Part shown: in pieces, positions 2,108 to 23,164 of the stretch
Position numbering within the stretch: position 1 is the stretch's first letter
Layout: the number at the start of each line of letters is the position of its first letter
DNA from: a virus
Length of the DNA stretch: 26,568 bases
Reading direction: 5' to 3' (one strand)
Virus record (IMG/VR): IMGVR_UViG_3300011114_000434
Location: 1-26,568 of that record
The notes under the pieces: generated by a model
Database searches by the model: none
Seen by the model: the letters and a program-made list of their open reading frames with translations, nothing else
What the model was told of the DNA's origin: nothing
Made by a program: the position numbers and the translations under genes

Positions 2108-5100
2108 TTAATGGACTTTATCGTATAAAGTCTGGACGTGTGACAGAAGCCTACGCTCCTTTGCTTCAAGCGCCCGTACTCTCTCCGCTTTTATCTCCGA
2201 AGATAAGTTCTTGTTACTTAGAATCTTACGAGTAGTTGCATGAATCTTATCCGTCTCAGTCTTTAAATGATTCATCTTCTGATGCACGGACTCGTTTAGA
2301 AGGTTTTTATTGCTCTCCTTATACTTACGAGCTTCCTCTAAGTTACCTTCCTTCTTAAGCCGGTTATATGTGCTGTGCGCCCCTTCTACATCTTCTCGCA
2401 AATCATAGTAAGTAGCCTTAGACTGCTCCATATGTTCTTCAGGAACAAGACCCGTCATACTAGGGAACATTCTAGCTATCTCCCTTGCTGTATGTTCTTT
2501 AGTAGGATTATCAGAACCTATGGATTCTGCAATATTAGATAAGCCTAGGATAGCCGTACCCACGCCACTAAACCAAGCTTTCATAAAATGATCAAACCTA
2601 ACAGGAGATAATTGAACTTCTTTAGGTAACCCTGAAGTTATTGTCCCAACTAACTTGCCTAACGCAGAAGTACGATTATCGTATTGATAAGAGGGGTCAT
2701 TCTTACGTAATCTTTCAGCAACAATCGGTCTGCCTGTAAACAAGTCATAATTAGTAGGTTGTTGCACAAGAATTTCTTTAAGTGCAGGTGGTAAAATAGG
2801 CGTACCAAATGCAGTAATTATAGCTTCTCTATAGGCCTCATAAGTCTGTCTAGGATTTTCAGTTTCTGCAACAGCCGATTGGAATAGATGGTTTCCTGTA
2901 ATATAAGGCAATGCAAATACACTAGGGCGCACAGGGATAGATAGCATAGAGCTGCCCCCAAATAACATTATGTGCGTATCTTTATAGCGGGTATCGCGTT
3001 TGTTAAACTCGTCTTTATCATCGTCATCTCCCAGCAAGCCGCCATACAGCATATTGTAGATAAAGGACATTGTAGCCATAGTGATGGATGTCATAGCTAG
3101 GCGTTTATGGGCACTCATCTTGTCTGCACTTGACTGATACGCAAGACCTCTCCCAGCTACCACTTGGTACGCCGCACGGTGTGCTTGCATTGCCGCCCCC
3201 ATAAAAGGCGTAACAGAACGTACTTGCTCTAGTACAGCTGATGCACCACGTCTACGGAAGTTAATAATGTCAAAGGCTCTTTGGTATGCGATAGACTTAG
3301 CACGAGGGTCGCCTTCAAGCTCCTTCATAGTACGCACATACACTGCTTGACGAATAGCGTTATCCCCAGCCATAGCAAACTTTTCTAGAGATGACCTAAA
3401 CTTACGCCATGCACCTTTGTCTCTACTTAAATTAGTATGGTGAAGTGTGTCATAGGCGTGCAATGCACGGGTATCCCCAATAGTATCTTTAATACCTACT
3501 GCACCGATAGCTCGCAGTATTTTATGAGCCTCTGTATCTTCTTTAGAGAACGCGGTTGTTTTAAACTCTGAGAGCATCGTAGTAAATAACTTAAACGGAT
3601 TCTTAACACCTGATGAGAACGCCGCGTCATAAATATCTTGAGGTAGCTGAGACAAGGTAAACGTAGGAGTTAACACGATACCGTCACGCATGATATTACT
3701 AATTTTAGAAATAGACTTAAATACAAAAGGCGCAGCGGGTACGCCAGTAAAAGCGGCAGCCATTAAAGGGTCTTCAAACTTCCAATACTGTTTTTTACCG
3801 TGGAAATAACACGTCACCGTACCATCTTTACTGGATTTAGTCCCTTGCACACGAGTTACTGTACCCTCAGGTAAGTGCCGTCTAGCGATGTCTATTAGGT
3901 CTGTGGCCTTCTTTGCACGGATTGCTCGTGATAGACTTAATTGTACCCAATGTTCATGGTTATCTACCATGTTGAATACTTCCCGCTTAGACCCTTTAAA
4001 CTTTTGTTCACGAAACCCTTTAGTTAGTGAGATGGTGTTTGTTTTAAACTTACCACTAGCCATGTCATCAAAGGTAGCTTCAAGCTCATCGGGCTTTGAT
4101 TCCTCTGTCATAACACGCCACATAGGTGTATAAAAGGCAGCGTCCATATAGGCTTCTGCTTGCTCTTCTGAGTACAAACCAGACTTCACAAGAACATCGA
4201 TGGTATTTTTTCTAATACCTTGCCACATCTTTTCAGCTTTTACGAACCCATCTACTGACTTATAGGCTTCTATTGCAGCATCGCACTCTTCTTCGGTTAA
4301 CCCTAGTTTTAAAGTATCCATAATTTCACGGGACTTTTTAAACAGTTTAGCTTTTGCAGCAGGTGTAGTCTGTTTGTTAGCTTCTACTTTTAATGCACGA
4401 GCTTTCTCGTACTTCTCTTTCAAACGCCCAGCTACTAGATACACGGTATAAAATCTATGGGTTTCCTGCTCAGACCAGCCGTACTCAGTACCTGCATCAT
4501 CAACAAGTTGCCGCTCACTAACTACGTTATCGGTTTTATCTACAGCCACAAAAAACTCCGTATTAGGGTCATACTCTATACTACCCATTAACGTCCCTTG
4601 TGCTGCCATAGAAGAGTCACTAACTGCTTGAGATTGCGATACTCTATCCATTACCTTACCAATCTCCATAGGGTCTTTATCCGAACTCTCTAAAGCTCTA
4701 CGCACAGTGTTAATAAACCCTGCATCATGACTAAAGAACTGCGTTTCATAAACATCCGCCGCTCGCTGGATATTACTACCAGACTTACTTAACCTCTCTT
4801 TAAGCCCTTTCTTCTGCTTAACTGCAGCAGGGCGCATACCCTGACGGTCTTTCTCTACTTGCTCTTGGAGTTTTGAGTTAGGGGCTACTGAAAACGCAGT
4901 CTCTTCTCTAGGTGCACGAGTAGCTGTCTGTGATTCTCTGCGCAGTGCTTTAGCTGCAAGATGATGAGCGTCCGCTTCTGTTAGGTTAAGTTTTGCACCA
5001 AATGTAGTGCGTACCCAGTTTTTAACAGCTGATATCGCACGTTTTACGATAGGTAGATTAGGCGCGTTCTCAACTAGGTATGCTAGAGTCTCTTCGCCTT

Positions 5101-7132
5101 TTAAATGTTCTGGTGTATTCTCAGGGACAGCTTGTCTTGCACGGTCAAACGCTTCACCTTTAGTAGTCAGAGCTTGAGACGTTAAATCGCCCCAGACTTT
5201 ATCACCTACCATACCTCTCATACCAACGTGCACACCCATCTCATGCATCGCTACTTTAGGTAGCGTCTCTGGGGTAAGTTTGTTAGCTACTAAGTGCACT
5301 TCACCTTGAGGTGTTGTAAGGCCTTGTACGTTCTCTGGATGCCCTTCGCCGGGTAGTGTATCTTTCGTATCATGCAGAGTTAACTTACCACTAGCTACAA
5401 GACGTTTCATCTCTGGTGTGAGGTGAGGTTGCAGTGACTCTACGTTATGCTCCGTTATGGCATCGGATGTTGATACAGAAGGTTTAGGTTCAGGTTCAGG
5501 TTCAGGCTGTTCTTCTGGTGTTACGTTTTCAGGCTGTACTTGTTCTTCTGGCGTTACGTTTTCAGGCTGTACTTGTTCTTCTGGCTTGAACATCTTAGTG
5601 ATATCTGCCATCGTGACATTAGTTTGCTTACCCACAGTATTATCAGGCATCGGGTACTCTACCGTATATAACGGCGTACCTTCAAAGTCTCCTGTTTTTG
5701 TGTAAGTTGCTGTCTGACCATTAACAGTAATTGTCCCTTTAGCTTCATCACCTACAATTTCTGGCTCTACGTTCTCAGCCTGTGGCTCTACTACTTCTGG
5801 TTCTACGTTCTCAGCCTGTGGCTGCTCTGCCGCTGGTGCTGCTTGTCTTGCATACTCACGTTGTTTTTCTAGGTGGGCTTCCCATGCAGCATCATCAAAT
5901 TCTTTAGGTAGAGCAGATGCAAAGTTTATCTCTTCCTCACCTTCTACAGGTGCTTCGTCTGACTTATAGCGTTTCAAACGCTCATCTAATGCATTGATAC
6001 TTTCTTCAGATTGATAATGTCTTGGGTCTGATAGTTCTGCATACAGTTCTGGGTGGTCGTCTGGATTTACCCCTGCAAGCTCAAGACCATTCTCCATATC
6101 TACTTTACGATCTCTTTCTGAGAACCCTTGCGGTTGCGTAGGTTGCACTGGTTCTACGGCTGGTTGTTCTGGTGCTTGTTGCTCACCTGAGCCGCTCATT
6201 ACAGATGCCCCGCCACCCATAACAGTACCTAGAATAGACCCTAGTGTTGCATCATCAACAGCACCTTCCAGCAAAGAAGGTAAGTTCGTAGCGCCTTTTG
6301 CATAGTTATCCCAGATACGCTCTTGTCCAGATTGCAGTGCTTCTTCTGCACCTTCACCCAAAGTAGATACAAGAAGTCGTTTAACCACACTAGGACTACG
6401 TGCTGCTTCCTCACCCATATCTCTGGCAATAGTTCTATATAGTGTATCTTCTACGTTAGTACCGCCTGCTTTAGACACAAGCTTACCTGCAAACCGTCCA
6501 ATGACTGCATCTAATGCACCTGACCCAATAGCGGCAAGCTCTCCTTTGCCTGAGAGTTCTTTATCTGGAGCTTCTGCGGTAAGTTTTTGGGCTTCTTGCC
6601 CCATCTGTGCAAGACCTTCACCGATACTCGGTGCGTACTTAGCTGCCGCAGGGATACCTTTAGTTAGTAGTTTAGCTTCTGCCCCGCCTGTAAGCATAGG
6701 GACAATATTCTCACCAACTAACTCAGCTACAGCAGAGGGGTTTTCTATAGCTGCACTTAGAATATTACCTGCGCCTTTTGCTTCGGTTAAGTTTTTATAG
6801 GCTTGCTGCTGTTGAGGAGATGCGTTCTCTTGCAAATACTCCTTAGCTTTCCCTAAATCAACACCACGCTCACTAAGATATTTAGTTGCGTTAACCCCTG
6901 GCAGTAAGTCTGCCAACCCTTCAACCTGTTGAAGCGCACTAAGTCCACTTCTACCCGCAGTAACACCTACATCTTTGACAATGTCTGCGCCAGTACGAGA
7001 AGGGAGTTCTTGAGACTCCTGCATTTGCGCCTGCATTTCACGGTAGTGGTTAGCCAATTCTCTAGCATCTTCTACATTACCCGCAGCATCAGCCTTCTCT
7101 AAAGCCGCACCAATTTCTTCTAACGTAGCCAT
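2108..7132 (-). CDS. Very large polyvalent/internal virion protein with LPD38-type domain and HExGxH motif
   Basis: This 1674-aa protein is probably packed in the virion and ejected with the DNA. Residues 1-40 have the charged helical start (ALEKADAAGN...) common in phage polyvalent proteins. Residues 50-320 are Gly/Ala-rich amphipathic helices with an EEALQSGQERIWDNYA segment like those of internal core proteins. Residues 320-600 are acidic, low-complexity sequence with two sets of tandem repeats. H630-E631-M-G-V-H635 resembles a zinc peptidase site, but with HExxxH spacing rather than HExxH. Residues about 1138-1538 resemble the large polyvalent protein-associated domain LPD38, and 1560-1674 are predicted coiled coil. 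It is the last gene of the late unit, just before the terminator and 11 nt after the 604-aa gene. Domain names come from memory. The peptidase activity and ejection are inferred. Confidence 0.8.
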   Translation of the reverse strand: MATLEEIGAALEKADAAGNVEDARELANHYREMQAQMQESQELPSRTGADIVKDVGVTAGRSGLSALQQVEGLADLLPGVNATKYLSERGVDLGKAKEYLQENASPQQQQAYKNLTEAKGAGNILSAAIENPSAVAELVGENIVPMLTGGAEAKLLTKGIPAAAKYAPSIGEGLAQMGQEAQKLTAEAPDKELSGKGELAAIGSGALDAVIGRFAGKLVSKAGGTNVEDTLYRTIARDMGEEAARSPSVVKRLLVSTLGEGAEEALQSGQERIWDNYAKGATNLPSLLEGAVDDATLGSILGTVMGGGASVMSGSGEQQAPEQPAVEPVQPTQPQGFSERDRKVDMENGLELAGVNPDDHPELYAELSDPRHYQSEESINALDERLKRYKSDEAPVEGEEEINFASALPKEFDDAAWEAHLEKQREYARQAAPAAEQPQAENVEPEVVEPQAENVEPEIVGDEAKGTITVNGQTATYTKTGDFEGTPLYTVEYPMPDNTVGKQTNVTMADITKMFKPEEQVQPENVTPEEQVQPENVTPEEQPEPEPEPKPSVSTSDAITEHNVESLQPHLTPEMKRLVASGKLTLHDTKDTLPGEGHPENVQGLTTPQGEVHLVANKLTPETLPKVAMHEMGVHVGMRGMVGDKVWGDLTSQALTTKGEAFDRARQAVPENTPEHLKGEETLAYLVENAPNLPIVKRAISAVKNWVRTTFGAKLNLTEADAHHLAAKALRRESQTATRAPREETAFSVAPNSKLQEQVEKDRQGMRPAAVKQKKGLKERLSKSGSNIQRAADVYETQFFSHDAGFINTVRRALESSDKDPMEIGKVMDRVSQSQAVSDSSMAAQGTLMGSIEYDPNTEFFVAVDKTDNVVSERQLVDDAGTEYGWSEQETHRFYTVYLVAGRLKEKYEKARALKVEANKQTTPAAKAKLFKKSREIMDTLKLGLTEEECDAAIEAYKSVDGFVKAEKMWQGIRKNTIDVLVKSGLYSEEQAEAYMDAAFYTPMWRVMTEESKPDELEATFDDMASGKFKTNTISLTKGFREQKFKGSKREVFNMVDNHEHWVQLSLSRAIRAKKATDLIDIARRHLPEGTVTRVQGTKSSKDGTVTCYFHGKKQYWKFEDPLMAAAFTGVPAAPFVFKSISKISNIMRDGIVLTPTFTLSQLPQDIYDAAFSSGVKNPFKLFTTMLSEFKTTAFSKEDTEAHKILRAIGAVGIKDTIGDTRALHAYDTLHHTNLSRDKGAWRKFRSSLEKFAMAGDNAIRQAVYVRTMKELEGDPRAKSIAYQRAFDIINFRRRGASAVLEQVRSVTPFMGAAMQAHRAAYQVVAGRGLAYQSSADKMSAHKRLAMTSITMATMSFIYNMLYGGLLGDDDDKDEFNKRDTRYKDTHIMLFGGSSMLSIPVRPSVFALPYITGNHLFQSAVAETENPRQTYEAYREAIITAFGTPILPPALKEILVQQPTNYDLFTGRPIVAERLRKNDPSYQYDNRTSALGKLVGTITSGLPKEVQLSPVRFDHFMKAWFSGVGTAILGLSNIAESIGSDNPTKEHTAREIARMFPSMTGLVPEEHMEQSKATYYDLREDVEGAHSTYNRLKKEGNLEEARKYKESNKNLLNESVHQKMNHLKTETDKIHATTRKILSNKNLSSEIKAERVRALEAKERRLLSHVQTLYDKVH
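5510..5584 (-). repeat. 33-bp tandem repeat inside the 1674-aa gene
   Basis: The motif TTCTTCTGG begins at 5510, 5543 and 5576, giving two full 33-bp units and the start of a third, nearly identical apart from a T/C change. On the coding strand each unit encodes the 11 residues TPEEQVQPENV. A PEPEPEP stretch lies next to it. The region is probably a flexible acidic linker whose length varies by slippage. Confidence 0.85.
5761..5823 (-). repeat. 36-bp tandem repeat inside the 1674-aa gene
   Basis: Two 27-bp near-identical blocks begin at 5761 and 5797, a 36-bp period. They encode the 12-residue unit PQAENVEPEVVE and its variant PQAENVEPEIVG. The acidic linker character matches the 33-bp repeat nearby, but the unit is different. 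Confidence 0.8.
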
Positions 7133-7143: not shown

Positions 7144-8958
7144 TTATCTGTATTTATTTAGTAGTGCGTCTAACTTAGAGTTATCAGCTACAGTCTTAGA
7201 AGGTTGGGGTGTAGGACCTGAAGCGAAGTTCTTAATGTCCTCCCAAACACTAGATTTTTTTTGTACAGCCGGTGCTTTATATGCAGGGAATGGCTCGTTT
7301 AACTTCAATACCTCAGCAGGGTCAATACGATTACCGACCATAATACTTTCCATAATATCAGCTATCTGAGCTTGACGATCTTTACGAACATCTATTTCAT
7401 GTTGTTTCTCTTCGTCAGACAATCTATCATCTTTCTCTAAAGCTGCAATTTGTTTGCTTAGTTTTGTATCATGGTATTTGAGAGTGTTAACTTGTTGGTT
7501 AGCGGTCATAGCACCTTTAGCACCCCTAGACCCCGCTCCATCTCCACCGTAGTATTCCGCCTTAGCTCTAGCTTCCTCAGCTTGTGCACCGCGTAGAGAC
7601 GATGTAGCTTGAAGTTCTCTTTCTTTCTGGCCGTAATCAGCACCTTCTTTACCGTGTGTATATTTACGAAGTTTGTTTTCAGCATCTGTTTTAAAATTAG
7701 CGGCTCTAGCAGCTTCAGCACTTTCAAACCCTTTAAGTTTGATTGCTTTTTGTTCTGCGCGTTGCGCTGCTTCAACTTCGTCACGAAGGTCCATAAGTTT
7801 GTCTGAGCTTTTACTGATATCTTTACGAGCTTCCCCGTAGGATTTAAGACCTTCAGTTGCACCTGCACCGATATTAGCAAACGCATTAGGAGAAGTACCT
7901 GCCATTGTAGATAACCCAGCTTGCATTAGAGCCATCCAAGGAGAACGATCTTTTTCTTCAGCTAAATCAGCTTCACGTTTAGAAAGTCTTGCTTCCCGTC
8001 TTGCGGCATTAGGGTCTTCACCTAGTAAGTCTTGTAATTCTTTTGCTTTATATGCAGCAGACTCTTCTTCTTTGCTATGAGGCATAGGCATATCTTCTGG
8101 TGCTGCTGGGAACACCATACTACCTTTAGCTTCTGGTAGAGATGCAATACCTTGTTGAGTAGGCGGACTTGCAGCAGCTATTTTAGACGCCCCTTTAGGG
8201 CCCTTAACAGCAACGGGTGCCCCTTTTAAAATAGCGTCTTGGACTTCAGGAGTGAAGTTTATCAGCCCTTGCTCTTGGCGTGCTGTACCCTGCAATATTT
8301 TTTTAATTAAGTCGGGGTTATTTTTATCAATAACTGCATCGAGAGGTATTCCTGAATATTTAGAAGAACTGTTTAAATAATGAGTCATTTCCTCTGGTGT
8401 TTTATCATGTCCGTAATAGTCTGCAAGATGTTCTTTATAAGTTTTACCGTGGCGGCCCTCGATATTAGCGCGTTCGGCTAATATACTATCAATCATACTT
8501 CGTTGACGTTTAACATTCCCTTTATTAGATATGCCCCCTACAGCATTAGTAACACCGATTCTATCTGCGTTTTGAGAGTATAACTCAATAGGGTCCATTT
8601 CAGGAGCATCTTCAGCTTCAGGTACATCTGACCCATCCTCACCATTAAAAGCAACAATCCCACCGCCTGCATAGTCTTCTTCATCAATGCCACTAGGTAA
8701 AGAGTCAATGCCACGAGGTTCTTCTTGTGCTCTGCGTGCCATGTGTTCTTGCATGACATCATTATGAGCAGCGTCTAGTATTTGGTCAGCCACAGGAGGA
8801 GGTGGGTTCATACCTTGTTGAAGAGCTTGTTGCTGTGCCATCGCTTGCTTTTGAGCCATTGCTTTTTGTAGCATGGGGACTACAACGTAGTCAGGTACAC
8901 CGTTTTGACGAGCCTTAAGCAACTGATCAACTGAGTACATAGAAGGGGTATTCATCAT
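7144..8958 (-). CDS. Structural/ejected virion protein, 604 aa, function unknown
   Basis: I recognise this only as a type of large virion-associated protein common in environmental phages. The N-terminus (residues 1-60) is Met/Gln/Ala-rich (QKAMAQKQAMAQQQ). Residues 96-104 carry YAGGGIVAF, a motif also seen in two neighbouring proteins. Residues about 290-470 are strongly helical and charged, with probable coiled coil around a short hydrophobic helix (SPWMALMQAGLSTMAG, near 338). The C-terminus is basic and Pro-containing. The start is the first of two adjacent ATG codons, 8 nt after a strong AAAGGAGG site that lies in the last codons of the upstream gene. No catalytic motif is visible. The position between other candidate ejected proteins suggests a role inside the capsid or in DNA injection (inference). 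Confidence 0.7.
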   Translation of the reverse strand: MMNTPSMYSVDQLLKARQNGVPDYVVVPMLQKAMAQKQAMAQQQALQQGMNPPPPVADQILDAAHNDVMQEHMARRAQEEPRGIDSLPSGIDEEDYAGGGIVAFNGEDGSDVPEAEDAPEMDPIELYSQNADRIGVTNAVGGISNKGNVKRQRSMIDSILAERANIEGRHGKTYKEHLADYYGHDKTPEEMTHYLNSSSKYSGIPLDAVIDKNNPDLIKKILQGTARQEQGLINFTPEVQDAILKGAPVAVKGPKGASKIAAASPPTQQGIASLPEAKGSMVFPAAPEDMPMPHSKEEESAAYKAKELQDLLGEDPNAARREARLSKREADLAEEKDRSPWMALMQAGLSTMAGTSPNAFANIGAGATEGLKSYGEARKDISKSSDKLMDLRDEVEAAQRAEQKAIKLKGFESAEAARAANFKTDAENKLRKYTHGKEGADYGQKERELQATSSLRGAQAEEARAKAEYYGGDGAGSRGAKGAMTANQQVNTLKYHDTKLSKQIAALEKDDRLSDEEKQHEIDVRKDRQAQIADIMESIMVGNRIDPAEVLKLNEPFPAYKAPAVQKKSSVWEDIKNFASGPTPQPSKTVADNSKLDALLNKYR

Positions 8959-8959
8959 C

Positions 8960-10681
8960 TTATTTTCCTCCTTTCATCGCGTTATATACTGCTAAGTCAC
9001 CAATACCACTACCTTGAGCTTTAGGCTTTTTAATAATACCGCCTTTCTTCTTAAACCCACCACTAGCACCGTATACACCTAGTCCTGTGGCTGCTAAACC
9101 GCCATATTGAGAAAGCACACTAGGTGCAGGGGCGAACGTACTTACATTACCTGTCTGTACACCATTAAGCGCATTAGCAAGTCCTCCCAAGCGCTCCCAA
9201 GGATAATTTTGTTGGTAGTCGTTATAACTAATCGCGTTGTTAATGGCTTGTTGTCCCAGTGCTTGTTGTTGTGCACCGTAGGCATTCTGCATTGCCGCAA
9301 TAGACTGTCTTTGTGCAAGCTCTTGATTACCAAGATTTGCCATCTGTTGACCCGCATTACCCGCAAGACCATACCCAGCCTGTGCCCCTTGAACACCTTG
9401 AAGCCCAGTTTGAGCACCTTGTATCGCTTGTGCTTGTCCTGCAAGCCCCGTTCTAGCACCTTCAAGACCATACTGACCAGCGGCAGTTGCAGCGCCTACG
9501 CCAGCTAACCCAGCTTTCGCCCCTTCCATACCTTGCGCAGTACCTGCTAACTGAGCGTTAACACCTTGAAGTCCTGTGTTAGCACCTTGTATACCTGTTT
9601 GCAGACCTTGTAGTGATAAGTCTGACGCCTTACCAATGTTAGCTTGGGCGTTATTAAACGCAGTGTTGTAGCCTTGACCGATAAGGTTTGCTTGCGCTAA
9701 TGTGTTAGATTGGTTATTGAGGTTATTCACAACCGCTTGACGACTGCCACCATACGCACCTTGTTGCGCTGCTTGTGAATTGGCTTTTTGATTAGCTATA
9801 TCGTTTTGCTGTGCCATCAAATCTAACTGAGGTTGCAACGACTGCTCTAAGTAAGGGTTCATATACTGATTAACAGTTGAACTGTCTGTTATCTGCTTAG
9901 CATAGTCTGTCCCTACACCAGCGGCTGTGTTTCCGTAACCAGCACCTTGAGCACCGTATGCCATACCGCCTTGAATACCTAGACCTTGACCAGTTAACCC
10001 TGATATAGCACCTGAACCACCGTAATCGAGAGCATTGTTACCTAAGTTATAGGCATTTTGAGACGCTGTGTCCGCAGCGGCGTTACCAATAGTAGCCGAG
10101 TTAAGCCCTGCATTATAGCCAGCATCCCCATAATCCATTGCTTTAGAGGCTGTATTAAGTCCACCAGTAGCAGCGATATTAGTTAAGTCAGCGGCAGTTT
10201 GATTTTGTCCAGGTAGTCCCATATTTGCCGCAGCAGAATAAGACATATTCTGCAAGCCTGTGGCAGGGGCGGTCATTAAATTTGCGTCAAACTTACCCCC
10301 AGGAGAAAGAAAACTAGCAGGTTGATAAGGCGCAATTCCTGTAGGAGAGAACGTACCGTTAGTTGATGAACCTAAAGACTTTAAACTGTCCGCAATACTA
10401 GTACCACCAGCAGCATACCCTTTAACCTCTCCTCCCTTTGCGTAGTTAGAAGTTTGAGGTTTCCAATTACTGTCTATTTCTGGTACAGGCTTTCCAGGGT
10501 TATCTTCAGAAGTAAACGTCTGCCGTGTCATTGAATTGAACAGCATCTCATAATAAGGTTTAAGTTCATTAGGGATGTTACGCTGTTGCACAGTCGTGTT
10601 TTGACCGCCCCCGCTACCACCACCGTAAAATGTCGGTACGACATAAGTAAAAAAATACTTTTTAAAACTTTTAATAATCAT
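8960..10681 (-). CDS. Gly/Ala/Gln-rich virion protein with heptad repeats, probable DNA-ejection protein
   Basis: This 573-aa protein has a composition typical of phage ejection proteins: Gly, Ala, Gln and Asn dominate. A polar start (YGGGSGGGQNTTVQQ, residues 19-33) leads into IPNELKPYYE, which resembles the beginning of related environmental phage proteins. YAKGG (80-84) and YAAGG (89-93) match a motif in two other virion proteins. Residues 300-315 contain QQGAYGGSRQAV, a segment I recognise from this family. Residues 359-435 form eleven heptads of G-x-x-x-G-[L/I/M]-x type. NYPWERLGGLANALNG (492-507) precedes a small hydrophobic Gly-rich stretch and a basic end. The ATG at 10681 overlaps the upstream stop in ATGA. 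The role in ejection is inferred. Confidence 0.7.
   Translation of the reverse strand: MIIKSFKKYFFTYVVPTFYGGGSGGGQNTTVQQRNIPNELKPYYEMLFNSMTRQTFTSEDNPGKPVPEIDSNWKPQTSNYAKGGEVKGYAAGGTSIADSLKSLGSSTNGTFSPTGIAPYQPASFLSPGGKFDANLMTAPATGLQNMSYSAAANMGLPGQNQTAADLTNIAATGGLNTASKAMDYGDAGYNAGLNSATIGNAAADTASQNAYNLGNNALDYGGSGAISGLTGQGLGIQGGMAYGAQGAGYGNTAAGVGTDYAKQITDSSTVNQYMNPYLEQSLQPQLDLMAQQNDIANQKANSQAAQQGAYGGSRQAVVNNLNNQSNTLAQANLIGQGYNTAFNNAQANIGKASDLSLQGLQTGIQGANTGLQGVNAQLAGTAQGMEGAKAGLAGVGAATAAGQYGLEGARTGLAGQAQAIQGAQTGLQGVQGAQAGYGLAGNAGQQMANLGNQELAQRQSIAAMQNAYGAQQQALGQQAINNAISYNDYQQNYPWERLGGLANALNGVQTGNVSTFAPAPSVLSQYGGLAATGLGVYGASGGFKKKGGIIKKPKAQGSGIGDLAVYNAMKGGK
8967..8974 (-). promoter_or_regulatory. 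Strong ribosome binding site embedded in the upstream gene
   Basis: AAAGGAGG on the minus strand, 8 nt before the ATG at 8958, fixes the start of the 604-aa protein. The same bases encode the MKGGK ending of the 573-aa protein, so the two genes are physically locked together. Confidence 0.8.
9377..9607 (-). repeat. 21-bp periodic coding repeat (Gly heptads)
   Basis: Within the 573-aa protein, Gly falls at residues 359, 366, 373, 380, 387, 394, 408, 415, 422 and 429; the position at 401 is Ala. Most units fit G-x-x-x-G-[L/I/M]-[Q/A/E]. The DNA is degenerate, so this is an old repeat kept at protein level rather than a fresh tandem duplication. Confidence 0.8.
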
Positions 10682-11106
10682 ATTGATACTTCCAGTAAGG
10701 TACTGCGAGGTTGAAAGTTGAAGCGTTTCCAGAGCCTAATAATAGCTGGGCGTCCGTACCCTTGAATCATCGTTGCTCCGCGCATCTTAAATAAATTTTT
10801 TAATTGGTTAAAGCTATCTTGGGAGGCAATCAGTCTACCGCCTACTGCTGTAATAAAGGCAACACGATGCAGTGGGTAGTTAATATACGAGATAGTTACA
10901 GCACCTCTCATTACGTTATCCTCATCTACTGCCACAAAAAGCTCCCAATTACCGCTAACAAGATAGCTTAGTACATGGTCGTCATTATACGTCATGTTAG
11001 GTGAATTCTCACCACTCCCTTCCTGCAACCCAGCGATAATGTGGTGCTTAACTAGAGGCCATGTCTGTTGCACAAACTCAAGAGGCACTGCGTGTACGGT
11101 TATCAT
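10678..11106 (-). CDS. GNAT-like acetyltransferase-fold phage protein
   Basis: This 142-aa protein resembles the small GNAT-like proteins found among tail and internal virion genes of short-tailed phages. The pattern is an N-terminal helix with W16, a DHVLSYLVSGNWELFVAV strand region (residues 43-60), a GAVTISYI strand, an ITAVGGRLI segment and the end GRPAIIRLWKRFNFQPRSTLLEVSI, which fits the last helix and strands of the fold. The canonical acetyl-CoA loop (Q/RxxGxG/A) is not clear, so it may be structural rather than catalytic. It starts 7 nt after the stop of the 803-aa gene with no good Shine-Dalgarno site. Its stop overlaps the next start in ATGA, so translation is probably coupled at both ends. 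Confidence 0.6.
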   Translation of the reverse strand: MITVHAVPLEFVQQTWPLVKHHIIAGLQEGSGENSPNMTYNDDHVLSYLVSGNWELFVAVDEDNVMRGAVTISYINYPLHRVAFITAVGGRLIASQDSFNQLKNLFKMRGATMIQGYGRPAIIRLWKRFNFQPRSTLLEVSI

Positions 11107-11113
11107 ATTCTAT

Positions 11114-13525
11114 TTAGCGAGGTAGAGAACTTAAATATCCCTGCATAGCCGCCGTATCCGTGTAATCTCCTTGGTACCCTGCATTAACCGCTTGGTTCTC
11201 TAACTGCTGCCCTGTTAAAGATGTAAGTCCTGCATTTTGGTTAACTGTATTAGCAGAGGACAACGTAGTTGGGATTCCCGTTTCACCGTTAGGACCTAAT
11301 GCAAAGGTGTTCATATTTTTTTCGGACACAACATTATTTATACTAGGCGTTACTATCCCTGCATTGGTATTAACCGGTCTATATTGCGAGTTAGGATTTG
11401 CATCAAAAACACTCATATCAAAATTTTGGCTTTTGAGGTAATCTCTACTTTCATTTACTTTTTGTTGGTCATTAGCAATTTGCTGGTTAATAGCTGCTTG
11501 GTTTATATCATTTGTTTTATCTTGTGCTGTTTTAAACGCAGCAGCTTGCGCTGCGGCTTGTTGCTCGGCTATTAACTTATCTGTTGCTATCCGTCTAGCT
11601 TCAATTTCTGCTGACGTACCTAGATTTACACCGTTTGTATTTGTTACTACTGGCGTATCTGTTACGGCTGTTGGCGCCGCAAATTGACTATTCCATAATG
11701 CTAGTTTTGCCTGGTCAAAACCTGATTGAATTTTCCCATTATCACTATGAACCAATTGACGGTTCTTATAGTAATCTGTAACAGTCTCGAATTCTTTAGG
11801 CGTCAGTATTTGATTATTCCATATGCGAGCACCTTCTGTTGCATAATCATGCTCAGTGCCATCTGGACCAACCCCATATCTGGAGACAGGTTCTTCTACT
11901 CCGGCTATATACAGCCAGTCACCATTAGGGTTATTAACAGGGTCATAATACGACTTTTTAGGTTGCCCTGTATCCTTTTCAACTAAAGTATCAATACCAG
12001 CGTTGCCCGCTACAGTAGGTTTACCAGTTAACGTATCAATCCCTGCCGCAGTGTCTTGGTTAGCTACAAGATTAGGGTCAATTACTCCCTGTTCACGCAA
12101 TAAGCCACCTGGGTCTAACTGTACAAGTTCCGTTGACGTATCAATATCGGGCTTAGTTGTAGTAGGAATCACCATATCCTCAGTATCCGCAACCCAAGGA
12201 CTATTTATTGCACTACCGTCAGGGTTAGTTTGATACAGGCCTAGTAAGTTTTTACTAAGCGATGAGTCTTTAGTGAGTTCATTACCTGTAGGCAGTCCAG
12301 CAGAGTTCTGCAAGTTTATGATGTCCCTAGCTGTAGCATTTTTTTCAAACGGTTTACTTATGTTTGCTAATTGCGTTGATGTCATCTTGTCTGGCTGTGC
12401 AAGAGAGCTTTTATAATCTGAAGCAAAGGGGTTTTTAGTAGAACCTAGTAAACTGGTAAGCGCACTGGCATAAGGGGACTTTGATTTTGACTCATACATC
12501 TTTGTGTCAGTATTATAGGTAGGCGCAACATAAGCCCCTCTATTTGCTACTCCTTGATTGTTATATGTCTGCACAAACTCAGACATATCTTTAGGTTGTA
12601 TTTCCCCACCGTTGTAAACAAAATTACCCTTATCATCTTTGAAAGAACCTACAGGCAAAAGACCATTAATCCCAGTTTTAGACTCTGCTGATTTTTTATA
12701 CAGAGACTCAGTACCTGACGCTAGTGTACCAGGGTTTTTTAAAAGGTTAGTAAGTGCATCAGCCTTATCAGCGTCAGATTGCACCAAATAGTTAGAACCT
12801 GTTTGCGAAGCTAATACTTTTGAAGCTACTTTAGAGAGCGTGTCATTAAACCCTTGAACACCCCCTGCCGTAGTAGCTGACGCAACATTTTTTAAGTATT
12901 CATCTGAAAATAAAGGTTTTCCTGTATCAGGGTCTAGTATATTACCGTATGTGGATTTTAACTTATCAGCCGACATACTACCGGCTTTATATAAAGACGC
13001 TGATGGGGTTGAGCTAACAGCCTTAGTAAGGGTTGCAGGGTTATAAGGTTTAGTACTTGACCCGTTTACGATATCAGCTACGATAGTAGCTAACTCTGCT
13101 GGTGTTGCTTTAGGGTTAGCTAACTTGGCAGACTCAGTTGCTACTTTTGTCTTTGCTGTTTTTAGTGCAGTTGAGTTTGCAGTGCTAGTCTTTGTATCGC
13201 CAGAAATAATACCTTTATAAAAATCCGTAGAGAACGCGTCACCCTTAGAGTCTACTATTCCAGGGTTACTATCGGCTAACCACTTTACTCCTAAATCAGG
13301 AAACTTGGCTCTATACTTAGAGGCAATATCAGGGTTATTAATTATGGTACGGATATACGCTAGTTTATCGTCATACGTAGGTTTCTTTGAGAGAGCAGTA
13401 CCCCATGTGTTATACAGTTTTAATGCAAGGGGAGAATCTTTAATATTGTCATAAAAACCGTCCATGAAAGCTTGGTCTTGTGCATTTAAGCCAGCAATAG
13501 GTGTTGGTGTAGTAGTTGTAGCCAT
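11114..13525 (-). CDS. Large virion-associated protein, 803 aa, function unknown
   Basis: No known domain is recognised. The protein is rich in Thr, Ser, Asn, Ala and Lys and poor in Cys. Residues 10-100 look globular and helical (AQDQAFMDGFYDNIKDSP..., later KYRAKFPDLGVKWL). The middle is a long polar region with many short Ser/Asn/Gly stretches. Residues about 640-690 are Ala/Gln-rich and helical (KLIAEQQAAAQAAAF). It sits between a Gly/Ala-rich virion protein and a GNAT-like protein in the block of large candidate ejected proteins, which is the only clue to its role. The start is well supported: TAGGAG, which contains the stop of the upstream gene, lies just before the ATG. Confidence 0.65.
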   Translation of the reverse strand: MATTTTPTPIAGLNAQDQAFMDGFYDNIKDSPLALKLYNTWGTALSKKPTYDDKLAYIRTIINNPDIASKYRAKFPDLGVKWLADSNPGIVDSKGDAFSTDFYKGIISGDTKTSTANSTALKTAKTKVATESAKLANPKATPAELATIVADIVNGSSTKPYNPATLTKAVSSTPSASLYKAGSMSADKLKSTYGNILDPDTGKPLFSDEYLKNVASATTAGGVQGFNDTLSKVASKVLASQTGSNYLVQSDADKADALTNLLKNPGTLASGTESLYKKSAESKTGINGLLPVGSFKDDKGNFVYNGGEIQPKDMSEFVQTYNNQGVANRGAYVAPTYNTDTKMYESKSKSPYASALTSLLGSTKNPFASDYKSSLAQPDKMTSTQLANISKPFEKNATARDIINLQNSAGLPTGNELTKDSSLSKNLLGLYQTNPDGSAINSPWVADTEDMVIPTTTKPDIDTSTELVQLDPGGLLREQGVIDPNLVANQDTAAGIDTLTGKPTVAGNAGIDTLVEKDTGQPKKSYYDPVNNPNGDWLYIAGVEEPVSRYGVGPDGTEHDYATEGARIWNNQILTPKEFETVTDYYKNRQLVHSDNGKIQSGFDQAKLALWNSQFAAPTAVTDTPVVTNTNGVNLGTSAEIEARRIATDKLIAEQQAAAQAAAFKTAQDKTNDINQAAINQQIANDQQKVNESRDYLKSQNFDMSVFDANPNSQYRPVNTNAGIVTPSINNVVSEKNMNTFALGPNGETGIPTTLSSANTVNQNAGLTSLTGQQLENQAVNAGYQGDYTDTAAMQGYLSSLPR

Positions 13526-13534
13526 TTTTATCTC

Positions 13535-15160
13535 CTAAGCTGGCAGGTGTTTGTAGGCTTTTGGGTTGTCTGAGAACTTACCTTTGCCAGTTGTTTTTCT
13601 ACGTTCTGATTGAATGCGGTCCATCATTTGATATAAGCGTTTAGCACCCGCATCTGTAGAGCCATTACCTAACTCGGACACAATACGCGCGGGCACTACG
13701 AACTCACCTTCAGCGAGTCTTGCAGGTTGCTTACCACCAATAGAAGCAGGAATATCGTCAGAAACGCCATCACCAGGACCTTTAAGCAGTCTACCACCAT
13801 CAGAATACCCTCCTAAATCAGAAATACCCCCATGTGCATAAGCCATACCGCCCATTGCCATTTTCTTAGCAAACAATATAGCTTTTTGTTTACGTTGTTC
13901 TGGAGTGAGTTCAGTATCAGGAGTATCCTCTAAATAGTCACGTAAGTCTCGTGATGCTTCTCTATGCAGATTCCTACCGCCTACACCTTCAAGCATATAA
14001 GATTCTTCAGCTACTCCACCATGTGCCATCATCTGCACAGAGTCGCCCATATAACCTTGATTGTTTGACACTTCATTACGGTTAGGGATATCTAGTGTTC
14101 CTGGACTTTGCATCTGTGGTGTTTGGTCGTAGTTATCTAAATCTGTAATCCCACCTGCTGCAAACTGAGGGCCATACGGGCGATATACACTAGGATTCCA
14201 CTTTACGTTAGCACGGATACCGGGCTGAGTAGGCGCTACCTCCTCTTTAGGGTTATCAAGAGCCATATTAGCTGCTAGACCTATACCACCAGACGTAATA
14301 TAAGGGTGCGCAGTAGCAAACTTACCCACTGCATTGTCCATACCACTTAACGAACTAGTTGCCGCACCTCCAATCATACCCGTAGCAGCGCCTTTTGCCA
14401 TACCCTCACCAACATCTTCCCCTCTTGCTCCAGCCATAAGCCCACTAAGTCCAGCATTCATAGCGCCGCCTTGCAAAGCACTGCCCGCCATTTTAAGACC
14501 TGTGTTACCTACTATGTTTCCTTGTTGCCCAAACGCATCAGCAAGAAGCTGAGTACCCATATTAGCGCTTTCATAAGCTTTAACATTAGCTAGTTGCTGA
14601 GGAGTCTCCATAGGCCCAACAAAACCACCTTGTCCTGGAAGTGTTCCAGAACTACTCATAACAGACTGAGGACTTAACGCATTAACAGCCGCTTGATTAC
14701 CTGATGCACCTAAACTACCAATACCTCCACCACTGACACCTCCAGTAGCTCCACCAGTACCTCCAGCAAGGAGTCCAGCCCCTCCATTTACCCCTGCAAA
14801 CCCTGCTCCGCCTGTAGCACCAGCACCAGCACCAGCACCGACCGTACCAACAGATGTAGGTAATGCACTAGCCAACGCGGCGTTCCCTGCGTTACCTAAA
14901 GTTCCAGTGCCCGCACTGGTTAGAACACCAGTAGAAGCGCCAGCACCTCCTCCAGTAGCGCCTCCAGCCCCACCTCCAGCCGCAGCACCAGCCGCAGGGC
15001 CAGAAACAGCAGTACCGATACCGCCTCCTATACCACCCAACGTACCGCCGATAGCTACAGACTTTAATATATCTTCAGTACTGCCGCCGTTAACCCCTGT
15101 CATAATACCGCCAGAAGCTGCACCGACACTTGCGCCGACCATAACTCCAATCCAACTCAT
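13535..15160 (-). CDS. Gly/Ala-rich virion protein with conserved C-terminal module
   Basis: Residues 1-150 of this 541-aa protein are extremely Gly/Ala-rich with small hydrophobic residues (GGTLGGIGGGIGTAVSG-like), suggesting glycine-zipper helices able to sit in membranes. Residues 330-460 carry four [F/Y/M]-A-x-G-G units (333-337, 378-382, 435-439, 441-445). The C-terminal module, about residues 440-541, includes GYSDGGRLLKGPGDGVSDDIPA, the segment LAEGEFVVPARIVSELGNGS and a basic AKRLYQMMDRIQ end. I recognise that module from many environmental phage structural proteins, but it has no established function that I know of. The ATG at 15160 follows a GGGGA site and overlaps the cupin stop in ATGA. 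A role in virion or ejection-apparatus assembly is inferred. Confidence 0.7.
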   Translation of the reverse strand: MSWIGVMVGASVGAASGGIMTGVNGGSTEDILKSVAIGGTLGGIGGGIGTAVSGPAAGAAAGGGAGGATGGGAGASTGVLTSAGTGTLGNAGNAALASALPTSVGTVGAGAGAGATGGAGFAGVNGGAGLLAGGTGGATGGVSGGGIGSLGASGNQAAVNALSPQSVMSSSGTLPGQGGFVGPMETPQQLANVKAYESANMGTQLLADAFGQQGNIVGNTGLKMAGSALQGGAMNAGLSGLMAGARGEDVGEGMAKGAATGMIGGAATSSLSGMDNAVGKFATAHPYITSGGIGLAANMALDNPKEEVAPTQPGIRANVKWNPSVYRPYGPQFAAGGITDLDNYDQTPQMQSPGTLDIPNRNEVSNNQGYMGDSVQMMAHGGVAEESYMLEGVGGRNLHREASRDLRDYLEDTPDTELTPEQRKQKAILFAKKMAMGGMAYAHGGISDLGGYSDGGRLLKGPGDGVSDDIPASIGGKQPARLAEGEFVVPARIVSELGNGSTDAGAKRLYQMMDRIQSERRKTTGKGKFSDNPKAYKHLPA

Positions 15161-18375: not shown

Positions 18376-19122
18376 ATGTATGTGTATATTTGGAAAGATA
18401 TAAACCATGTTCCGTTTTATGTTGGATTGTCGAAAAAGTATCATAGAACTAACCCTAAAAATTCTGGAAGCAGGAATAAATCTTGTATTGAAAAACTCAC
18501 TGCAATTGGTGCAGATAATACCATAGTTGAGCTCATTCAAGTACCTACTTTAGAGGACGCGTGCCAACTGGAATTTAATTTAATTGAGAAATACGGTAGG
18601 TTAGATTTAAATACAGGTACGCTAACCAATAAAATGCCGGGAGGTTCACCTGGAAGTAAAGGTTTATCATCAGAAAAAATGATAGATTTAAAGTTTAGAT
18701 TGTCAGACCCAAACCACCCAATTAGGTCGCCAGAAGCTAGAGAAAAAGCCGTTACAAGGCTAAACTCACCGGACGTTAAAGAGAAATTTTTAGGCGATAA
18801 TAACCCAGCAAAATCACTTAAAGTTAGGCAAAAGTTAAAAGCTATTTGGGAGAATGAAGAGTATAGAGAATCGCAACGAGTCCGTAAATTAGGCAAACCT
18901 ATCCATTCCAATGAAGAAAAGGAAAAAAGAAAGCAAGCCTTATTAGACAAAAACCACCCCCTTAATATTTTGGAGTTTCATAAAACTTTAAATAGCGACC
19001 CAGATATAAAGGCTAAACGCGTTGCAACATTACAATCCCCAGAACAGCGAGCAAGGCAATCTGCGGCAATGAGAGCAAATTGGGCTAAACGAAAAGCCCT
19101 TAAATCTGAATCACAATCTTAA
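18376..19122 (+). CDS. GIY-YIG homing endonuclease with NUMOD-like repeats
   Basis: A 248-aa free-standing homing endonuclease. Residues 2-18 match the nuclease core (YVYIW ... PFYVGLS, a variant of GIY ... YIG). LEFNLIEKYGRLD (residues 65-77) carries the likely catalytic E66, and GTLTNKMPGG (81-90) closes the domain. The second half is basic and helical with NUMOD3-like units (SPEAREKAV near 118, SPEQRARQSAA near 226) that should bind the target DNA. Unlike every gene around it, it lies on the plus strand, just 35 nt from the start of the 701-aa gene. Its AAGAGAATAG upstream is a weak ribosome site. The sequence looks more A-rich than its neighbours. It probably arrived by transfer and may prefer the phage tail or lysis locus as a target. 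Confidence 0.85.
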   Translation: MYVYIWKDINHVPFYVGLSKKYHRTNPKNSGSRNKSCIEKLTAIGADNTIVELIQVPTLEDACQLEFNLIEKYGRLDLNTGTLTNKMPGGSPGSKGLSSEKMIDLKFRLSDPNHPIRSPEAREKAVTRLNSPDVKEKFLGDNNPAKSLKVRQKLKAIWENEEYRESQRVRKLGKPIHSNEEKEKRKQALLDKNHPLNILEFHKTLNSDPDIKAKRVATLQSPEQRARQSAAMRANWAKRKALKSESQS

Positions 19123-19711: not shown

Positions 19712-20437
19712 CTACGCTAAAACTCTACGGACGGCTCTGACCGGGCGGTTAGAATTTTTAGCACTATTAGTAGCTACACCATCGGTAAACCGCTTTCTTC
19801 TTGCACCAATAGAATCAACTTCAGTAGAAGTCCAATAACCATAATCATCAGAGTCAAGTGCATTAGATTCACCAACTCTAAACCCAATACCTGCACTCGT
19901 TTGCGCTGGAGAGCCACTAGTATAATTAGTGCTTATTGGTTCTGGTGATACTGCATTGGCATTTGAGCCGTTAGAGGTATTATTTGCATCTGTTGTAGGT
20001 TTTAAGAAGTAGTACAAAACTTCAAGTTCGTTTAACGCGGGTAAATACCAGTCGCTGTAACCGCCAATTGTAAGACCTTCACAAAATACAGCAGCTTGAT
20101 AATTTGCACCTAAAGCTGCTAAATTAGCAGAATTAGTTGGGCCGTTAATTACAGATGTCTGCGCGGTATCTACCCCGTAAACACCCCATGTTTTGCCTGT
20201 TGCTTCACCAGTTGCTTTAGGTGCTACAACAAGATTATATATAGTCCCAGAGACGTTAATTTGCCCTGCAAAATAACCACCACCGTATGCGCTACCTATT
20301 GGAGGAGTAGCTTTTGGCCACACACCTGCTGTCTGATACTGTGCTTGCTGAGATAACGTCCACATACCTTGTGCTGACGATGTGGTAACTGTGGGTGGCG
20401 TTTTGCTTATGAACCCGCCTGCGTATTGATTACTCAT
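19712..20437 (-). CDS. DUF1566-domain receptor-binding-type protein B
   Basis: A 241-aa protein with an N-terminal module (residues 1-35, ending SSAQGMWTLSQQAQ) shared with the larger paralogue at 21240-22256, probably a virion-attachment segment. After WPKATPP a DUF1566 (Lcl_C, C-type-lectin-like) domain runs from about 48 to 241: YGGGYFAGQINVSG, GGYSDWYLPALNELEV (126-140), SAGIGFRVGE (181-190), YWTSTE (201-206) and the ending VRAVRRVLA. Such domains act as adhesins. Identity to the paralogue is high up to about residue 195 and then falls. The start is ATG at 20437, where ATGA overlaps the cupin stop and AGAGGA lies upstream; an earlier TTG is less likely. Confidence 0.7.
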   Translation of the reverse strand: MSNQYAGGFISKTPPTVTTSSAQGMWTLSQQAQYQTAGVWPKATPPIGSAYGGGYFAGQINVSGTIYNLVVAPKATGEATGKTWGVYGVDTAQTSVINGPTNSANLAALGANYQAAVFCEGLTIGGYSDWYLPALNELEVLYYFLKPTTDANNTSNGSNANAVSPEPISTNYTSGSPAQTSAGIGFRVGESNALDSDDYGYWTSTEVDSIGARRKRFTDGVATNSAKNSNRPVRAVRRVLA

Positions 20438-20808
20438 ATATCTATCCTCTTTGCAGCGTCCCAATACCCATCATCTCTAGCACTAGCCGATTCTGGATCG
20501 TGTTGTTCACCGTAAATATCTTCAATCACTTCACCGTCCATATTACGCAAAGCATAAACACAGTAATAAACTGTGCCGTCCTCAACTGCTGTAATCTTGT
20601 GCTGGTGTTCTTTGCGGATAACGATAAAAGTCGGTGCTGTGAATTCTTTAGGCTCGTGACCTTCGATTTCAACAGATACCTTACCCGCTACAAGTAGTGT
20701 TACATGGTCAAATTTATGCTCATGCCCACCGTGTGTTTCACCGGCAAGCTCTAGGACGTTTTGTTTTACCCAAATATTGCCAAAATAACCTAGCTCAAAT
20801 GTTTTCAT
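20434..20808 (-). CDS. Cupin-domain phage protein, 124 aa
   Basis: This protein begins MKTFELGYFGNIWVKQN and shows a cupin metal site: H29-E-H31 with D34-H35, followed by strand-turn-strand (HVTLLVAGKVSVEIEG), then KEHQHKI with H68 and H70 and a final strand YYCVYALR. The tail is acidic. Proteins of this sort accompany fibre genes in environmental phages; no reaction is known to me. The start at 20808 makes a 4-nt ATGA overlap with the fibre-assembly-like gene, matching other junctions here; a TTG 11 codons upstream lies inside the previous gene and is rejected. It lies between the two DUF1566 genes' surroundings, so a role with the adhesins is possible (inference). Confidence 0.65.
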   Translation of the reverse strand: MKTFELGYFGNIWVKQNVLELAGETHGGHEHKFDHVTLLVAGKVSVEIEGHEPKEFTAPTFIVIRKEHQHKITAVEDGTVYYCVYALRNMDGEVIEDIYGEQHDPESASARDDGYWDAAKRIDI

Positions 20809-21239: not shown

Positions 21240-22256
21240 CTAAACTGGGATTCTACGGACTGCTCTGACATAATTTGTAGTCCCTTTAGTATTATCATAT
21301 TGACTTCCATAATTAAAGTTTCCTACCCATGCTCTCCCATTTCCTAACCCCCCCAAATCATATTGAGTAGATGCCCAATAAAAATCAAGAGCAAAAGCAT
21401 TCGTTTCACCAGTTCTAAATCCGATACCTGCACTAGTTTGTGCTGGTGAGCCAGTAGTATAGTTAGTGTTGACAGGCTCTGGAGATACTGCGTTTGCGTT
21501 TGCACCGTACCTTGTATCGTTTGCGTTTGTGCCAGGTTTTAAGAAGTAATAACAAACCTCTAACTCATTTGTAGCTGGTAAATACCAATCGCTATAACCG
21601 CCTATTGTTAACCCTTCGCAGAAAGTTGCTGCCGCATAGGTTGACCCTAACCCAGCTAATGTTGCGGAGTTAGTGGGACCGTTAATAAGACTCGTCACTC
21701 CCGTATTTACTCCGTAAGTACCCCATACCGCTGTTGATTCACCACTAGCTTTTGGAGATACAACTAAATAATACTGTGTGCCAGATACATTTATTTTACC
21801 TGCATAATACCCACCACCGTAGGCTTGACCAATTGTAGTTGGAGGGGCAAGAGGTGTTGTTATGCTATTACTTGCAGCACTTGGAGAACTTACACCTATT
21901 GGATTAGTAGCAGTTACTGTAAATGTGTACGATGTAGAAGCCGATAATCCACTGACTGTAATCGTACCAGAACCAGAACCACTAATTGTGCCTGTTATAC
22001 CCCCTGGCGAGCTTGTAGCCGTGTATCCTGTAATTCCATAACTTCCACTAGGCGCAGTAAAAGACACCGTAGCAGAACTATACGAAGTAGCAGTAGCAGT
22101 GCCGATAGTAGGAGCTGGAGGAAGCGCACCGTACGGCCACCCAGTCCCACCAACAGCTTGTAGCTGTTGACGCATAGACCACACGCCTTGCGCACTAGAG
22201 CTTGACGTTGTTGGTGCTGTGGCTGACAGCACCGCGCCTTTATATCGCATCGACAT
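21240..22256 (-). CDS. Fibronectin-III plus DUF1566 receptor-binding-type protein A
   Basis: A 338-aa protein. Residues 1-35 (ending SSAQGVWSMRQQLQ) match the first 35 residues of the paralogue at 19712-20437. Residues 47-135 are a fibronectin type III domain (PPAPTIGTATATS, GITGYTATSSPGG, LSASTSYTFTVTATNPIG), absent from the paralogue. Residues 142-338 are a DUF1566 domain: YGGGYYAGKINVSG, GGYSDWYLPATNELEV (219-234), SAGIGFRTGE, FYWASTQY (292-299) and the Asn/Tyr/Gly-rich ending before VRAVRRIPV. It probably binds a surface ligand. AAGGAG before the ATG overlaps the stop of the gene upstream. See the findings for the candidate variable region. Confidence 0.75.
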   Translation of the reverse strand: MSMRYKGAVLSATAPTTSSSSAQGVWSMRQQLQAVGGTGWPYGALPPAPTIGTATATSYSSATVSFTAPSGSYGITGYTATSSPGGITGTISGSGSGTITVSGLSASTSYTFTVTATNPIGVSSPSAASNSITTPLAPPTTIGQAYGGGYYAGKINVSGTQYYLVVSPKASGESTAVWGTYGVNTGVTSLINGPTNSATLAGLGSTYAAATFCEGLTIGGYSDWYLPATNELEVCYYFLKPGTNANDTRYGANANAVSPEPVNTNYTTGSPAQTSAGIGFRTGETNAFALDFYWASTQYDLGGLGNGRAWVGNFNYGSQYDNTKGTTNYVRAVRRIPV

Positions 22257-22660: not shown

Positions 22661-23164
22661 TTATATTGCAAAAGAGCCGTGATACTTGTCACGCGCTTCA
22701 GATGCTACAAGTTCTGCTAATTCAAAATCTTTAAAGTAGCCTAAGTTAATACGCTTTCTATTTACATTAATATATACAAACCATTTGCTAGAAAACTTAT
22801 GCCATGATACACCTTTAGCACTAGACGTGTTTGAGGTAAATACCTTTCGGTTACTTGCATTTTCACAGGCAGTTGCTTCTCTTAGATTTTCAATACGATT
22901 ATCTAAAGATACTCGGTTTATGTGGTCTACTTGCTCTGGCATATACCCATGATGCCACATATAAATTAACTTATGCACACAGTAATGCTGACCATTTATC
23001 TTTGTAATAAGGTATTTTTTATCCATCCTATTTCTACCAGCATTTGAAATACTGCCAATAGCTCGCCCAATTTGTCCACACGGTCCACCAGTAGGTACAA
23101 GGCGTACTAAATTTCCGTCATCCCTATAATAAAACAATTCTTTTAATTTAGATTGAGTAACCAT
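22661..23164 (-). CDS. HNH homing endonuclease with AP2 DNA-binding domain
   Basis: A 167-aa mobile endonuclease. Residues 59-95 hold the HNH site: H64 in CVHKLIYMWHHG, D80-H81 in VDHINRVS, N89 and N93-L-R. Residues 112-162 form an AP2-like DNA-binding domain (AKGVSWHKFSSKWFVYI, then GYFKDFELAELVASEARDKYHG). The start is ATG at 23164, one base after the stop of the upstream gene (TAATATG); an in-frame TTG at 23176 would overlap that gene. The gene sits in the same orientation as the tail genes and would travel on the late transcript. No host gene is disrupted: the upstream protein keeps a family-typical ending. Cutting of an unoccupied site in related phages is family knowledge. Confidence 0.85.
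   Translation of the reverse strand: MVTQSKLKELFYYRDDGNLVRLVPTGGPCGQIGRAIGSISNAGRNRMDKKYLITKINGQHYCVHKLIYMWHHGYMPEQVDHINRVSLDNRIENLREATACENASNRKVFTSNTSSAKGVSWHKFSSKWFVYINVNRKRINLGYFKDFELAELVASEARDKYHGSFAI

Follow-up and report, generated by a model that had tools for sequence, protein, structure and literature searches.

We examined a short amino acid motif, [FYM]AxGG (an aromatic residue or methionine, alanine, any residue, and two glycines), in a 26.6-kb virus record (IMG/VR record IMGVR_UViG_3300011114_000434; all 26,568 nt, referred to here as the window). A block on the minus strand encodes, in order, proteins of 541, 803, 142, 573, and 604 aa and a 1674-aa LPD38 protein. The motif occurs in three candidate ejected proteins of this block, named here by their lengths as g541, g573, and g604 (Table 1).

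The gene order of the window was found in three cultured phages (DSL-LC04, GB2A, and MinM2), where the annotations read, in order, stabilization protein, tape-measure-like protein, two hypothetical proteins, and DNA transfer or lytic tail protein. g541, g573, and g604 lie between the tail-closure gene and the large terminal ejection protein, the position expected of ejection genes. This gene order supports, but does not prove, that the three motif proteins are ejected, and gene content alone suggests a short-tailed architecture for the phage. The family matches of g573 to phrog_4287 (E = 0.007) and of g604 to a tape-measure PHROG (E = 0.001) were weak. Full-length g541 matched no family in Pfam, PHROGs, or NCBIfam and, as a whole protein, did not classify as a tape-measure protein.

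Recurrence and conservation of the motif

An earlier reading of the window, made without database searches (the sequence-only reading), had listed seven copies of the motif, and all seven were present: one in g604, two in g573, and four in g541. Six of the listed positions were exact, but MAMGG begins at residue 434 of g541 and not at 435. The copies were said to be usually followed by I, V, E, or M, which holds for six of the seven sites (T comes after YAAGG). That list lacks a YSDGG variant at residue 452 of g541, which is conserved in 22/22 homologues, more than any other copy. Motif positions fall at residues 80 to 96 and 333 to 456 and are never terminal. The three proteins otherwise look unrelated, in line with that reading: none matched either of the other two families in blastp searches at E<=1e-4. 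The seven copies have differing codons at each site and are therefore not recent DNA duplicates, which rules out a DNA-level repeat.

Such a motif might arise by chance in proteins rich in glycine and alanine, as g541 and g573 are. Residue shuffling, which the sequence-only reading had proposed together with a pattern search in relatives, gave expected copy numbers of 0.03 for g604, 0.20 for g573, and 0.26 for g541; 1, 2, and 4 copies were observed. In total, seven copies stand against about 0.5 expected (Poisson probability of about 1e-6, before any penalty for a pattern picked after looking). As controls for composition, we used the reversed motif, GG.A[FYM], and scrambled versions. In loci not selected by motif, there were 218 forward and 30 reversed matches, or 100 and 3 when [IVM] was required after the motif. 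Among metagenomic relatives, the forward and reversed counts were 92 and 3 for g541, 31 and 0 for g604, and 28 and 1 for g573 (151 versus 4 in all), although, with the loci retrieved through their homology to the window, these counts are of non-independent events. Single-linkage clustering of open reading frames (ORFs) merged families and was left out of the counts. No forward motif was found in homologues of the neighboring proteins g701 and g803 or of g691, g212, both 142-aa proteins, the M15 peptidase, or g219, and homologues of the 1674-aa protein had 3 motifs in 36 thousand residues. A generic bacterial protein motif was rejected, with 0 copies in three E. coli K-12 stretches (38,945 aa). 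The shuffles, the reversed-motif control, the restriction to particular families, and the E. coli sample refute chance composition, which is further contradicted by conservation and which we regard as barely credible.

The persistence of the motif in diverged homologues is a stronger argument than the family counts. An IMG/VR scan with g541 yielded 25 loci, and homologues of all three proteins hold the motif at matching positions while residue x varies (YAGGG/YAHGG/MAGGG at the g604 site, YAKGG/YANGG/YAEGG at the first g573 site, and FAAGG/YAAGG/MAAGG at site 333 of g541). Even distant g604 homologues (20-24% identical) all retain A-x-GG-I. In most g604 relatives, the motif recurs 8 residues further along (FAEGG/FADGG; MAGGGIVAFADGG); the window's counterpart is degenerate (FNGED). 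Tandem copies 8 residues apart are frequent, with up to five copies per protein, and a period of 8 was the top spacing in the non-redundant set of loci not selected by motif (15 cases). Selection extends beyond the motif itself (I/V/M at +5, V at +6, and F/L at +8), which is more than a plain flexible linker requires. A DNA pattern for MAxGGIVAFAxGG had at least 120 matches in IMG/VR. The excess and the positional conservation together support the idea of a shared, selected motif of candidate ejected proteins.

Table 1. Motif sites, the C-terminal module, and genes of the block (coordinates in the window)
Feature	Coordinates	Strand	Basis
YAGGG, g604 residues 96-100	8659..8673	-	No variation at A, GG, or I among 12 homologues
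Extended stretch GI..LP....YAGGGIVAF, g604 residues 83-104	8647..8712	-	Invariant or near-invariant alignment columns
YAKGG, g573 residues 80-84	10430..10444	-	Retained in 9/11 homologues
YAAGG, g573 residues 89-93	10403..10417	-	GYGSGG instead in some relatives
Putative degenerate C-terminal copy FKKKGGII, g573	9032..9055	-	Alignment by eye; FAKGG or YARGG close to this C-terminus in relatives
FAAGG, g541 residues 333-337, context FAAGGITDL	14150..14164	-	Retained in 11/22 homologues, the nearer half
MAHGG, g541 residues 378-382	14015..14029	-	MAHGG[IV] in most near relatives
MAMGG, g541 residues 434-438	13847..13861	-	Sequence scan
YAHGG, g541 residues 441-445, context YAHGGISDLGG	13826..13840	-	G444 and G445 invariant in 22 homologues
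YSDGG variant, g541 residues 452-456	13793..13807	-	22/22 homologues
C-terminal hook-like module GPGDGVSDDIPA...GEFVVPARIVSELGNGSTDAGAKRLYQMMDRI, g541 residues 461-516	13613..13780	-	Common to siphophage tape-measure proteins; two predicted helices
g604, 604-aa candidate ejection protein	7144..8958	-	Gene order shared with annotated cultured phages
g573, 573-aa candidate ejection protein	8960..10681	-	Weak match to phrog_4287 DNA ejection protein
g541, 541-aa candidate ejection/tape-measure-like protein	13535..15160	-	Motif content, homologues
g803, 803-aa protein in the same block, without motif (negative control)	11114..13525	-	0 motifs in 14 homologues
Large virion-type protein of 1674 aa with LPD38, without motif	2108..7132	-	Family and motif scans

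The C-terminal module of g541 and tape-measure proteins

The C-terminus of g541 is near-invariant (YSDGGxxxxGPGDGxSDDIPA...GEFVV, followed by two predicted helices). Searched alone, it matched 75 cultured-phage records at E<=1, many of them weakly, and the matched genes were mostly annotated as tape-measure genes. In these genes, [FY]AxGG lies just upstream of a GPGTGxSDSIPA element, as in GFADGGLVRGPGTGRSDSIPA (Flyfo podovirus), GYAAGGLLRGPGN (MiniMac), GYAGGGRISGPGT (Psycho), and GFATGGRVDGKGTGTSDDIPA (REQ1). Against the PDB, a profile of the element matched the JBD30 and Douge tape-measure proteins (E values of 1e-11 and 3e-32); that of JBD30 (8RK3) has GFASGGHIKGPGTGTSDSIP, and that of Douge (8ZDO) has two copies of the element. 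Members of the element also matched many tape-measure PHROGs.

A second IMG/VR scan, for the element, together with the earlier loci gave 120 non-redundant GPGxGxSDxIPA elements. [FYM][AS]xGG occurred at most 40 residues upstream in 71 of the 120, and the reversed form did so in 2; the distances peak sharply at -8/-9 and -20/-21. g541 matched the GPGxGxSDxIPA..GExV profile of the siphophage hook-like module, with the YSDGG variant 9 residues and YAHGG 20 residues upstream. On this sequence evidence, we take the C-terminus of g541 to be a module of siphophage tape-measure proteins and the motif to be widespread in tailed phages and tied to this conserved module, points missing from the sequence-only reading. 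Relatives of g541 of very different length have only the C-terminal end in common, and the window's module had no covering model in Pfam, PHROGs, or NCBIfam. A module of the form GPGTGxSDSIPARLSDGEFVxTKKATDQIGADNLQxMMDDAERAYDGG is also widespread in a distinct group of metagenomic phage proteins, 130-700 aa long (L207, L209, L220, L232, L244, and others).

Laboratory phages carry related arrangements. Lambda gpH has FATGG at residue 733 and YATGG at 778, within its C-terminal 120 residues, and the N15 tape-measure protein has the same motif pair (FATGG/FAGGG and YATGG across the two phages). The two motifs of each protein flank GEFVFTKEATxRIGVGNLYR[LM]M[RK]G, and the lambda stretch aligned with the profile of the window's module as a divergent copy (hhalign E = 4e-6, probability 87%). 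The lambda region falls inside NCBIfam TIGR01541, and the module is therefore implicitly captured for lambda-like phages. In the TM4 tape-measure protein, another carrier of the module, there is a single strict copy, and LATGG precedes GPGTGTSDSILA. Across eight laboratory phages, we counted 5 copies in 7.2 thousand residues of tape-measure proteins and 5 in 48.6 thousand residues of other ORFs; the motif is enriched in tape-measure proteins and not confined to them. The tip plug of lambda, gpI, was rejected as a motif carrier, as it has none. Separately, the gpI-like tail-tip proteins of HK97 (L328, 6335-6943) and N15 (L333, 14700-15290) carry SYAFGGVTN, unlike lambda gpI.

In an AlphaFold model of g541 (22 homologues), the predicted local distance difference test score (pLDDT) was mostly below 50, most motif sites included (mean, 44). 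A model of the C-terminal 110 residues (60 sequences) gave two helices after GEFVV at a pLDDT of about 90 and values below 50 for the motif-bearing residues. The motif segments are thus predicted to be locally disordered. Folds similar to the C-terminal model in BFVD belonged mostly to uncharacterized metagenomic phage proteins. For JBD30, the prediction has been an unstructured stretch (residues 930-1021) and then a hook (residues 1022-1066) made up of two helices plus one short hairpin, and the hook was proposed to anchor the tape-measure protein in the baseplate (PMC11445458). The JBD30 FASGG, at about residues 1019-1023 as counted from the profile alignment, falls at the junction of the two. 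The predicted make-up of the window's module is the same as that of the predicted JBD30 hook (residues 1022-1066).

Possible roles of the motif

Of the three roles suggested by the sequence-only reading, docking (or a hinge) fits best, a packaging tag fits less well, and a protease site fits least. We tentatively favor, with a little less than even confidence, a docking or hinge function for [FYM]-A-x-G-G-(I/V/M) as a short linear motif of DNA-delivery conduit proteins. It would belong to proteins that line or travel through the conduit, namely, tape-measure proteins in long-tailed phages and ejection proteins in short-tailed ones. Its copies would sit in flexible glycine-rich segments, frequently as tandems spaced 8 residues apart, beside the compact C-terminal hook-like module. 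Each copy may act as a small sticker, in which the aromatic residue or methionine, the alanine, and the following isoleucine or valine would add a short strand or a hydrophobic contact to a conduit partner; the glycine pair would form a hinge for threading the chain through the portal or tail and for re-docking after ejection. Both docking and the identity of any partner are what we infer here. A rather doubtful extension is that the motif serves tape-measure and ejection proteins alike as a shared docking code for the trans-envelope DNA conduit, with the same kind of partner for both; if true, this would connect two delivery systems that are generally regarded as distinct.

Several points weigh against the docking or hinge role. 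Any binding partner, and any bound state of the motif, is so far hypothetical. Confidence in the AlphaFold models is low to moderate (mean pLDDT, 44 and 66). In lambda, the tape-measure part docked in the tip is the C-terminal coiled coil at residues 818-842 and not the motif (PMC10721106); where resolved, tip-docked tape-measure parts are C-terminal coiled coils. The motif is not universal, with no strict copy in the tape-measure proteins of HK97, Mu, P2, phiC31, and TP901-1 or in P22 gp7/16/20 and T7 gp14/15/16. We also infer the virion location of g541, g573, and g604.

The motif could instead be a flexible hinge only, without a specific partner, that marks where compact segments meet in proteins that have to unfold to get through the portal or tail. 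The predicted disorder of the motif segments and the position of the motif at the edge of the hook module, which it brackets in lambda and N15, are consistent with a hinge. Glycine suffices for a plain hinge, however, yet alanine at +1, an aromatic residue or methionine at 0, and isoleucine or valine at +5 are selected, and g604 homologues as distant as 20% identity show no variation at A, GG, and I. Selection on the aromatic residue or methionine, the alanine, and the isoleucine argues against a plain spacer, and we consider a hinge without a partner unlikely, if still a serious contender. Shared descent in place of shared function would apply if recombination had distributed a mobile mini-module, made up of the hook module and the adjoining motif, over tape-measure and ejection genes, leaving the extra copies as remnants. 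The C-terminal module is clearly common to podoviral and siphoviral proteins, in keeping with such a history, and is all that g541 relatives of different lengths share. The motifs of g604 and g573, however, lie near the N-terminus without a hook module, codons differ between copies, and the copies are under selection in diverged homologues, which leaves a mobile mini-module improbable.

A cleavage site, at which a virion or host protease would cut Gly-Gly to mature ejected proteins in the manner of lambda and T5 tape-measure proteins, is suggested by the late cleavage of lambda gpH during tail assembly (PMC3224144, PMC10038345), with its motifs in the C-terminal 120 residues. The T5 tape-measure protein, however, is cut after Arg1127 (PMC10038345), the JBD30 cut has been proposed at residue 1066, outside the motif (PMC11445458), and tandem copies at 8-residue spacing, as many as five in one protein, would be superfluous as cut sites. 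The S78 prohead protease was not found in the window or its relatives, and ClpP-like and S49 proteases were not found in seven relatives, some of whose records may be fragments; the 1674-aa protein does have a metallopeptidase-like stretch (MHEMGVH). Cleavage is quite improbable in our view. A capsid-packaging tag, which like the T4 capsid targeting sequence would bring ejected proteins into the procapsid, would fit the presence of a short sequence in several candidate interior proteins and its absence from the tail-stabilization-like and 803-aa proteins. Yet a capsid-entry tag leaves unexplained the motif in the tape-measure proteins of lambda (gpH), N15, TM4, JBD30, and Douge, which are tail and not head components, and the motif is internal and repeated where capsid targeting would have it N-terminal; we judge this role very improbable.

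Tape-measure and ejection proteins diverge so quickly that sequence seldom reveals them. The conserved motif and module offer a sequence handle for finding such proteins in metagenomes, and the two copies in lambda gpH make the function of the motif testable in a laboratory phage, one in which the processing of the tape-measure protein has been an issue since the 1980s.

Neighboring features and known systems

No family matched the 142-aa protein of the block (10678-11106, minus strand), which shows 79-92% identity across ten related loci, above its neighbors, and by eye resembles an acetyltransferase-like gp13 internal virion protein. The 1674-aa protein contains, besides LPD38, a DarB-like stretch, a metallopeptidase-like MHEMGVH motif, and a short EEQVQPENVTP tandem repeat. 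Three ORFs among the structural genes resemble mobile endonucleases by eye (18376-19122, plus strand; 22661-23176 and 26272-26553, minus strand); the types are GIY-YIG-like, with the start MYVYIWKDINHVPFYVGLSKK, HNH/AP2-like, and NUMOD3-like. Two paralogous tail proteins (19712-20464 and 21240-22256, minus strand) share a WYLP..NELEVxYYFLKP domain (DUF1566-like by eye), and the longer has an extra fibronectin-type segment. The records OQ594354, OL906435, and PP438419 (Synechococcus, Planktothrix, and Planktothricoides phages), all of 65014 bp and with the same match, are probably one phage deposited three times.

In the open literature, we found no description of the motif, of the tape-measure element, or of a link between tape-measure and ejection proteins, which is weak evidence given the few subscription papers covered. 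The cross-family motif and the podoviral version of the module appear to be undescribed. P22 gp7/gp16/gp20 and T7 gp14/gp15/gp16 resemble the window's proteins in their likely role and in gene position after tail-closure genes but differ in lacking a strict motif; tblastn searches of cultured phages gave no match of the window's proteins to those of P22 or T7, and for g573 and g604, no matches at all. The T4 capsid targeting sequence and the P1 DarB signal are likewise short and shared by, or sufficient for, interior virion proteins. Both are N-terminal, and that of T4 is removed by the prohead protease (PMC9024508, PMC5694885), whereas the window's motif is internal, repeated, and also present in tail proteins.

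In lambda gpH (TIGR01541), FATGG and YATGG bracket GEFVFTKEAT...NLYRLM, which can be aligned to the g541 C-terminus, but lambda lacks GPGTGxSDSIPA, and g541 comes from an apparently short-tailed phage and has no NCBIfam match. The structure papers on JBD30 and Douge resolve C-terminal residues and not the GPGTGxSDS element. The JBD30 (8RK3) and Douge (8ZDO) proteins, with the GPGTGTSDSIPA element, are unlike g541 in being long siphophage tape-measure proteins, yet like the module of g541, they carry [FY]AxGG directly before GPGTGxSDS.

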